From: Haloterrigena turkmenica DSM 5511
GTDB taxonomy: Archaea; Halobacteriota; Halobacteria; Halobacteriales; Natrialbaceae
Assembly (NCBI RefSeq): GCF_000025325.1
Contig: NC_013743.1
Location: forward strand, 248,001-312,000
Length of the DNA stretch: 64,000 nt
Direction of reading: 5' to 3'
Shown: piece by piece, positions 51,668 to 53,822 of the stretch
How the letters are laid out: each line of letters opens with the position of its first letter
Position numbering within the stretch: the first letter of the stretch is position 1
Notes under the pieces: model-generated
Told to the model about the DNA's origin: nothing
The model's input: only the letters and a program-made list of their open reading frames with translations
Database searches by the model: none
Made by a program: the position numbers and the translations under genes

Positions 51668-51793
51668 TTATCGCATTCCGTCCCGGAACTCGAGGATGGT
51701 CCGTCGAATGAGCAGATACGAGAAGAAGATCAACGTGAGGAGGATCACCACGATGGCGATGATGACGGGGTCGTCGGGGATGAGGTCGAACAT
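51668..51793 (-). CDS. 41-residue single-helix membrane protein
   Basis: The minus strand from ATG 51793 to TAA at 51668 encodes MFDLIPDDPVIIAIVVILLT followed by LIFFSYLLIRRTILEFRDGMR. It is one continuous hydrophobic helix flanked by an acidic N-terminus and basic C-terminus, consistent with the positive-inside rule. The reading frame lies 8 nt before the 79-residue membrane gene, and the translation start coincides with the first ATG. Function unknown; possibly a subunit or regulator of its neighbour. Confidence 0.65.
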   Translation of the reverse strand: MFDLIPDDPVIIAIVVILLTLIFFSYLLIRRTILEFRDGMR

Positions 51794-52225
51794 ACCGGGG
51801 GTACCGTGTCAGCGCGCAAAATCGTTTCGACCTCGGTCACGTGTTGGCGACGCGACTCGATACGGTCGCGATCGCTTCGGCGACCGAAACTAACTCAAAC
51901 AGATGTTTCAGCTTGCGCTGACTATATTCTACGACGGAACGTAGTCGAGCGTGCGTCTCGGTCGTCGTCCGCGAGGAAACGATCGAGACGGGTCGCCCGC
52001 GACTCCGCTATCACCCTCCCAACCCGACCGCTTCGATCCGACGCGGGCGATCGACGGCCGGCCGTCGATGCCGAACTCCCGCTCTGATCGCGTTTCCGAT
52101 AGGTTGCCGGAACGCGACGGTCCCGCTGGCGCGATGAGTCCCCGCGCCTTGTTCCGCCGATCAGTTTCGCCTTCTACACCGTTCGGTAGCGTCCGATCGT
52201 CGGTTCGCGACGCTCGACAGCAATA
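51794..52225. other. Intergenic region upstream of TFB remnant
   Basis: No intact gene was recognised. The part next to 52226 may contain more decayed TFB sequence, but I could not read it in any frame. Confidence 0.4.
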
Positions 52226-52423
52226 GAGTCGGCGGAACTGCTGTACGGCCGCTCGCTCGAGGGGTTCGCGGCCGCCTGCGTCTACGCGACCTGTCGGATT
52301 CAGTCGATCTCGCGCACGATCGACGAGATCGTCGACGTCACGCAGACGGCGGTCGCGGAGCTCGCCGGCGTCTCGCGGATGACCGTCCGCTCGACCGCGA
52401 CGGAGCTCAATCAGTGGGAGTAG
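52226..52423 (+). pseudogene. TFB (TFIIB-like) remnant, apparently chimeric
   Basis: The frame from 52226 to the stop at 52421-52423 reads ESAELLYGRSLEGFAAACVY, then ATCRIQSISRTIDEIVDV, TQTAVAELAGVSRM and TVRSTATELNQWE. The first half fits the first cyclin repeat of archaeal transcription factor B (GRS-x-E-x-x-AAA-x-VY-x-x-CR-x-x-x-x-x-RT-x-DEI). The second half fits the end of the second repeat (T-Q-x-A-V-A-E-x-A-x-V-S-x-x-T-V/I-R). About 66 codons of a normal ~320 remain, without a start codon or zinc ribbon. Confidence 0.75.
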
Positions 52424-52478
52424 TAATTCAGCGGCTTCGTGTACACGTTCAAATGGGAAGAGGAAGCCTAATCGAGGC

Positions 52479-53822
52479 ATGATCGCAATCGCCGGTGCGA
52501 AAGGTGGCTGTGGCAAGACGACGACGACGCTGGGTCTCGCCGAGGCGTTCGGTCGTGCCGGAACGCCCGCGCTCGCGGTCGACGCCGACCGACAGCTTCC
52601 GAACCTCCACGTCAGGGGCGGTATCGATCGCGAACCGACGCTCGTGGCGGCACGGGGTGAAGACGACGTACTGCAGGCCGCCCAGACGGACCCGCGGTCG
52701 TCGAACGTCGCGTTGCTCCCGGCGCCGAAGTCCTCCGAGCAACTCGATATGGAGACGGCCATAGAGCGACTGTCGCCCGACTCGGTGCAGTCGCTGATCG
52801 ACTGCCCGTCGGGCGCGGGCCCCGACGTCGTCGATCCGCTCTCGGTCGCCGACGCGGTGGTCGTCGTCACGACCGCGGACGACCGGAGTCTGGACGCCGC
52901 CGAGACGACCGTGGAGATGGCGAACCGGCTCGGCGTCCCGGTGCTCGGCGCGATCATCAACCAGTCGACCGACATCCCCGAGACGGTCCGGTCGTGGGTC
53001 GATGTGCCGGTACTGGGCGTCGTTCCCGAGGTCGACGACCCGCTGTCGAGCGACGACTCCCGGGCCGTCTACGACGAAATCGTGCGGACGCTCCAGACGA
53101 AGAACGCGACGGTCCGGACGCCGCCGGCGTACGCCGACGAACTGCTGGGGACCGGTATCGACACCCTCGACCGCCGACTCGGCGGCGGCTTCCCGCCCGG
53201 CACCGTCGTCGCGCTGACGGCCGATCCGGCGAGTCAGAGCGAACAGCTCCTCTACCAGACGACGGCCGTCCGCGGCTCGCTGTACATCACGACGCGTCGC
53301 TCCGAACGGAACGTCGACCGCGCGATCGAGTCGTCGACGCTCGAGACCGGCTCCCCGACGGTTCGCCGGATCGACGGCGAGGGCGCCGAGCCCTTCGACC
53401 GGTTCCGGGAGATCCTCGACAAGCTTCCCGATGGCGCGAACCTGCTCGTCGACACCGCGAGCGCGCTCGAGCGCCGCGACAGGAGGGCCTACGTCGCGTT
53501 TCTGAACGATCTCAAGGACAGAATGGCCGAGACCAACGGCGTCGCCGTCCTCCACTGTCCGACGCGAACGGTCCCGGAAAACCGCGAGATTACGACCCAC
53601 TTCGCGGACGTCGTGCTCGAACTCGAGACCGTCTCGTCCGGTGTCGGTGCGGACGTCGAACACTATCTTTCGGTCCCGAAACATCGCGCTGACTGCGGTT
53701 TCTCCGAGACGATCGAACTGCGCTTCGACGGAACGTCGAACGCGATTACGGTGCCGGCCGACGGGGAACTGGGAGCCGGCTCCGCTCCCGGCGTTACCGC
53801 CGAGCGTCGATCGGACGAATAG
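52479..53822 (+). CDS. ParA/MinD-like ATPase fused to RecA/KaiC-like domain lacking a P-loop
   Basis: This 447-residue protein has an N-terminal ParA/MinD domain with deviant Walker A KGGCGKTT at residues 8-15, DADRQLPNLHVRGG, SLIDCPSGAG and TTADDRSLDAA. From residue 226, a second domain begins GIDTLDRRLGGGFPPGTVVA exactly like KaiC/RadA proteins. Where the second Walker A is expected, there is ADPASQSEQ (248-256), so this copy cannot bind ATP canonically. Recalled as a haloarchaeal DUF7125-type protein. Convergent with the MinD-like gene that follows. Confidence 0.8.
   Translation: MIAIAGAKGGCGKTTTTLGLAEAFGRAGTPALAVDADRQLPNLHVRGGIDREPTLVAARGEDDVLQAAQTDPRSSNVALLPAPKSSEQLDMETAIERLSPDSVQSLIDCPSGAGPDVVDPLSVADAVVVVTTADDRSLDAAETTVEMANRLGVPVLGAIINQSTDIPETVRSWVDVPVLGVVPEVDDPLSSDDSRAVYDEIVRTLQTKNATVRTPPAYADELLGTGIDTLDRRLGGGFPPGTVVALTADPASQSEQLLYQTTAVRGSLYITTRRSERNVDRAIESSTLETGSPTVRRIDGEGAEPFDRFREILDKLPDGANLLVDTASALERRDRRAYVAFLNDLKDRMAETNGVAVLHCPTRTVPENREITTHFADVVLELETVSSGVGADVEHYLSVPKHRADCGFSETIELRFDGTSNAITVPADGELGAGSAPGVTAERRSDE

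Follow-up and report, generated by a model that had tools for sequence, protein, structure and literature searches.

A probable pseudogene remnant of a TFB paralogue upstream of the ParA–DUF7125 gene of Haloterrigena turkmenica

A preliminary description of DNA from Haloterrigena turkmenica DSM 5511 reported a frame of 66 codons that joins the beginning of one cyclin repeat of a TFB to the end of the other, and this raises the question of whether such a frame is a small gene in its own right or what is left of a larger one. The window in which it lies, meaning the whole stretch of 64,000 nucleotides that was analysed, corresponds to C1:248001-312000 of this organism's genome (G000), which comprises 5,440,782 bases over 7 contigs, the largest of 3,889,038 bases. 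The part of the genome report drawn on here gives the same two figures for the genome and the chromosome of the type strain 4k / DSM 5511, together with six plasmids (PMC3035258).

The relatives to which we refer most often are Natronolimnohabitans innermongolicus (G120), which belongs to a neighbouring genus, Haloterrigena salina (G001) and Natronorubrum texcoconense (G009). The ParA-linked TFB paralogue is labelled tfbX in what follows, and its G120 copy was used as a stand-in for the lost parent gene. The features of the locus, in window coordinates, are as follows.

51840..52226, + strand: left flank, which aligns to intergenic DNA of G001, G003 and G004 (in G004 to about 52212)
52226..52423, + strand: probable TFB remnant, 65 codons and the stop codon TAG, 198 bases
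52227..52339, + strand: repeat-1 part, matching nt 425-537 of the ParA-linked TFB gene of G120 (96/113 identical)
52330..52339, + strand: putative deletion junction CGTCGACGTC, a single copy of a 10-bp motif in which both parts overlap
52330..52423, + strand: repeat-2 part with the stop codon, matching the G120 TFB gene from nt 786 to its end
52448..52453, + strand: TTCAAA, a probable TATA element at -31 to -26 of the ParA–DUF7125 gene, inside a conserved stretch (52440-52478)
52479..53822, + strand: gene for a ParA/MinD-type ATPase fused to DUF7125 (447 aa), used as the synteny anchor

Coding capacity of the frame and its surroundings

The frame proved to be real, with 65 codons followed by TAG, and its translation is ESAELLYGRSLEGFAAACVYATCRIQSISRTIDEIVDVTQTAVAELAGVSRMTVRSTATELNQWE. 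The open frame around it (75 residues) was recognised by the Pfam TFIIB profile (E=1.5e-9; score 38.2 bits, cut-off 23.6), with a single hit over profile positions 38-82 of 92 rather than two complete cyclin repeats. It is one of 15 stretches matching PF00382 in this genome, 12 of which are the paired repeats of six full-length TFBs; the other three, the remnant included, are shorter pieces. The frame is open upstream as far as a stop at 52187, but between this stop and an ATG at 52379 there is no in-frame ATG, GTG or TTG, so that only the last 14 codons could be read from a canonical start. The remnant thus has no usable start codon, as a functional TFB would need, and codes for less than a whole TFB. 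It resembles the haloarchaeal TFB/TFIIB paralogues in the sequence of both halves, but unlike them it lacks the zinc ribbon and linker, and of the two repeats it is missing the beginning of the first and the greater part of the second. The likeness to TFB that had been described at this place was upheld, although not its left limit: homology begins at 52227 and not at 52226, the first codon of the remnant, GAG, corresponding to a CAG (Q) codon in the G120 gene.

The DNA on the left of the frame did not contain the missing part. TFB likeness in 51840-52226 was not above chance (35/300 shuffles scored as high), which indicates that the 5' part of the TFB gene, with the zinc ribbon and linker of a functional TFB, is gone. 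Likewise, no TFB traces were detected in the 410 bases before the ParA promoter in G001, G003, G004 and G005, where 51, 271, 217 and 242 of 300 shuffles, respectively, scored as high. On the right, the gap of 55 nt to the ParA/RecA-like gene was as previously given. The TTCAAA element in this gap, which lies downstream of the remnant and outside it, would be the promoter of a leaderless ParA–DUF7125 gene; TT[CT]AA occurs at -34 to -21 before the start of this gene at 26 of 30 ParA loci. Further to the left, the window contains a 41-aa membrane-protein-like frame (51668-51793, - strand) that begins MFDLIPDDPVIIAIVVILL. A closely similar frame is found upstream of ParA in G001, G003, G004, G005, G120 and G121 (7/30 loci, including the window), and it is probably a real small gene.

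Two other TFB pieces were noted in this genome, both outside the window. At C1:2532180-2532485 there is a 102-aa TFB-like gene with a single cyclin repeat, present in 38 of 41 genomes (this one included). Like the remnant it has only one TFIIB-type repeat, but its frame is complete, starts with an ATG and is widely distributed; a regulatory role for it is only a guess. The other, C4:145951-146160 (C4 has 180,781 bases), marks a 134-aa open frame in which a partial TFB repeat runs into unrelated letters, and it looks like a second TFB pseudogene.

Parentage of the two halves and the junction between them

The frame does couple part of repeat 1 to the end of repeat 2, as had been proposed. In local DNA alignments with the G120 TFB gene the repeat-1 part scored 141 and the repeat-2 part 92, whereas the maxima in 300 dinucleotide shuffles were 39 and 49, respectively, so the likeness of both halves to TFB is not due to chance. 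When residues were compared with 45 TFB rows (44 distinct genes, one of them read from two loci), the best summed match was to G120, with 33/37 for the first half and 22/28 for the second. The runner-up for the first half, at 29/37, was found in genes outside the ParA-linked clade, and ELLYGRSLEGFAAAC is identical in the remnant and in tfbX of G120. For the second half G009 and G130 (24/28) exceeded G120, and genes outside the clade reached at most 15/28. G120 is also the nearest relative by ParA identity among the seven genomes that have a TFB–ParA pair. When the fragment was placed in a maximum-likelihood tree with 44 TFBs, it grouped with G120 (support 100/94) inside a clade (100/98) consisting of seven ParA-linked genes and one gene of G051, the latter not adjacent to the G051 ParA gene. 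As the fragment fills 21% of the tree columns and has a long branch, its placement is unsure and the tree is used as supporting evidence only. The parent is one particular ParA-linked TFB paralogue, tfbX.

The point at which the halves meet is also informative. The G120 gene contains CGTCGGCGTC at 528 and CGTCGACGTC at 786, 258 nt apart and in one codon phase, and the fragment retains one copy; relative to G120, 258 bp or 86 codons are absent between the halves. The consensus of the motif, CGTCGRCGTC, follows 'RTIDEI' of repeat 1 and precedes 'TQTAVAEL' of repeat 2. Of 20,000 junctions drawn at random within the G120 gene, only 6 had a repeat matching at 9 of 10 positions. The motif pair, again 258 nt apart, is present in variant form in G050; the same motif pattern did not find it in G009, G130, G023, G110 or G052. 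Because both copies are in the same phase, the junction is in frame and the product resembles a chimeric cyclin repeat. The cyclin repeats are spaced by 94 codons, so that the junction misses their register by 8 codons; this speaks for a deletion between short repeats rather than for recombination between aligned ones. The original reading as a TFB remnant is thus largely supported: of the suggestion that the two homologous repeats had been joined by deletion, an internal deletion running from repeat 1 into repeat 2 stands, whereas an exchange between aligned repeats does not. The 86 codons were probably lost by way of the 10-base microhomology, for which slippage or microhomology-mediated repair would provide a mechanism. 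Prokaryotic pseudogene remnants that arise by deletion between short direct repeats are of a known kind. The present one shares with them the single 10-bp motif at the junction between two parent segments, and differs in that its two motifs by chance share a codon phase, which leaves the junction in frame and makes it mimic a chimeric domain.

The locus in related genomes

The ParA–DUF7125 fusion is patchily distributed, with 65 places in 64 of the 125 family genomes (this one included) at E<=1e-70; G002, for instance, had no match at this threshold. TFB genes were searched for with the G009 protein as query (E<=1e-85) and accepted within 1000 nt upstream of the ParA gene on the same strand. 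The preliminary description had recommended looking for an intact TFB at this locus in relatives, and 7 of the 64 genomes (G120, G009, G130, G023, G050, G110 and G052) indeed have one directly upstream of the ParA gene, with a spacing of 58-236 nt between the TFB and ParA matches and TFB open frames of 291-315 codons. The 2.5 kb upstream of the ParA gene was searched by tblastn (E<=0.01) at 30 of the 65 places, giving 7 intact TFBs, 1 remnant (that of the window) and 22 loci without a TFB. The divergent group of TFBs of about 300 aa to which the parent belongs has a member in 118 of the 125 genomes at E<=1e-85. In 14 of the 64 genomes a further TFB belonging to the tfbX/tfbY group is located no more than 60 kb from ParA–DUF7125, in 13 of these on the opposite strand.

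In sister species little of the fragment is left. G001, G003 and G004 align to both flanks of the window yet lack nearly all of it, and the short frame was not found in any of the five other members of the genus (E<=1e-9; the ParA loci of G001, G003, G004 and G005 were also inspected). In G001, about 31 bases similar to the last ~10 codons are joined to the same left flank and precede the ParA promoter region, and 0/1000 mononucleotide shuffles gave as good a match; for last-codon traces elsewhere the corresponding figures were 6/1000 in G004, 21/1000 in G003, which is weak, and 35/1000 in G005. The locus therefore seems to show decay in stages, intact in some genomes, partly deleted in the window and nearly erased in others, the order of the deletions being one that we infer.

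Conservation of the short frame across several genera, which had been put forward as the observation that would make it a real single-repeat gene, was not found. In a DNA search of the 125 family genomes, with up to six candidates per genome scored and 5 genomes giving no match, only the window itself covered all 198 bases among the matches listed; the others covered at most 129 bases, and none in the 124 other genomes spanned both halves. Among the matches listed from a protein search of 41 genomes, all but the remnant itself belonged to open frames of 157 aa or more. Counted by codon position 1, 2 and 3, the remnant differs from G120 at 8, 4 and 22 sites over 37+28 codons, the junction codons being included in both halves of a fragment of only 65 codons. 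This third-position excess is like that between intact genes (G050 and G110, in which the search motif was unmatched, and G052 were left out of the comparison), and the frame has no internal stop. The absence of a stop and the predominance of third-position differences suggest either that inactivation was recent or that something still preserves the frame; the loss of tfbX may thus be recent.

Decay of tfbX and other origins of the frame

We consider it very likely, with a probability of about 0.93, that 52226-52423 is a pseudogene remnant of tfbX, which once lay directly upstream of ParA–DUF7125, and that at least two deletions produced it. One, a separate event, would have removed the 5' part with the zinc ribbon, linker and repeat-1 start, about 141 codons when counted from the ATG at which the G120 gene was taken to begin. 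The second would have removed 86 codons (258 bp) between the near-identical 10-bp motifs, keeping the frame. On the right side, the neighbour's promoter-like element, conserved at 26 of 30 loci, may limit deletions. Two marks of a pseudogene were found, namely an intact homologue at the same locus (7/64 family genomes) and disabling lesions relative to G120 in the form of a 5' truncation and the 258-bp internal deletion. Such a remnant would be without function; it appears very unlikely that it has been retained as a mini-TFB or as regulatory DNA of the ParA–DUF7125 gene, with any translation beginning at a non-canonical start.

The open frame and the bias of its changes toward third positions would also be expected of a real short gene, whose single-repeat product might modulate transcription, for example as a competitor for TBP or for promoter DNA, and true single-cyclin TFB-like genes do exist, such as the 102-aa gene described above. 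However, there is no ATG, GTG or TTG ahead of the last 14 codons, and in comparison with intact TFBs the frame amounts to less than a full cyclin repeat: it lacks the opening part of the repeat and contains one stretch, which we take to be that around helix 4, twice. Together with its absence from the five other genus members and the lack, among the matches listed, of any match across both halves in the 124 other family genomes, this makes a conserved single-repeat gene highly improbable, and it was rejected on its distribution and missing start codon.

Doubt of another kind concerns the parentage of the first half, which could have come from the other paralogue, tfbY, and been joined to repeat 2 of tfbX by recombination or gene conversion. 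RTIDEIVDV is common to the repeat-1 part and tfbY of G003, and in DNA this half taken alone resembles tfbY as much as it does the G120 gene (by BLAST, 87% over 89 bp for tfbY of G092 against 85% over 113 bp for G120). At the residue level, by contrast, the 33/37 shared with tfbX of G120 compares with 28/37 for the organism's own tfbY, and the latter is intact, 36 kb away and on the opposite strand, so that a simple deletion cannot fuse the two. Such a hybrid, disfavoured by the residue matches, the tree and the position of tfbY, is highly doubtful. Nor does the fragment need to have decayed in place, as a captured piece of a TFB gene could have been inserted into an intergenic region, and the presence of both flanks without most of the fragment in G001, G003 and G004 would fit this. 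Against it, the order and orientation are the same as for the intact TFB–ParA pair in seven genomes, and at least G001 appears to retain the last codons of the gene; we regard insertion as extremely unlikely. Decay of tfbX in place remains our reading of the locus, and the remnant is a case of ordinary gene decay, although an unusually clear one.

In the literature on haloarchaeal TFB paralogues, TFB pseudogenes and H. turkmenica we found no paper whose title concerns this locus. According to the parts of one study used here, the expansion of haloarchaeal TFBs is ancient, several duplications predate haloarchaeal diversification, and tfbE is patchy (39/80 genomes), a pattern which fits the loss of paralogues (PMC4230888). 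The locus provides a well-documented snapshot of such loss of a haloarchaeal TFB paralogue at one syntenic site, and suggests that one particular TFB paralogue is paired with the ParA–DUF7125 gene. It also cautions against taking an in-frame chimeric domain for a new protein, since such a domain can be the scar of a deletion.
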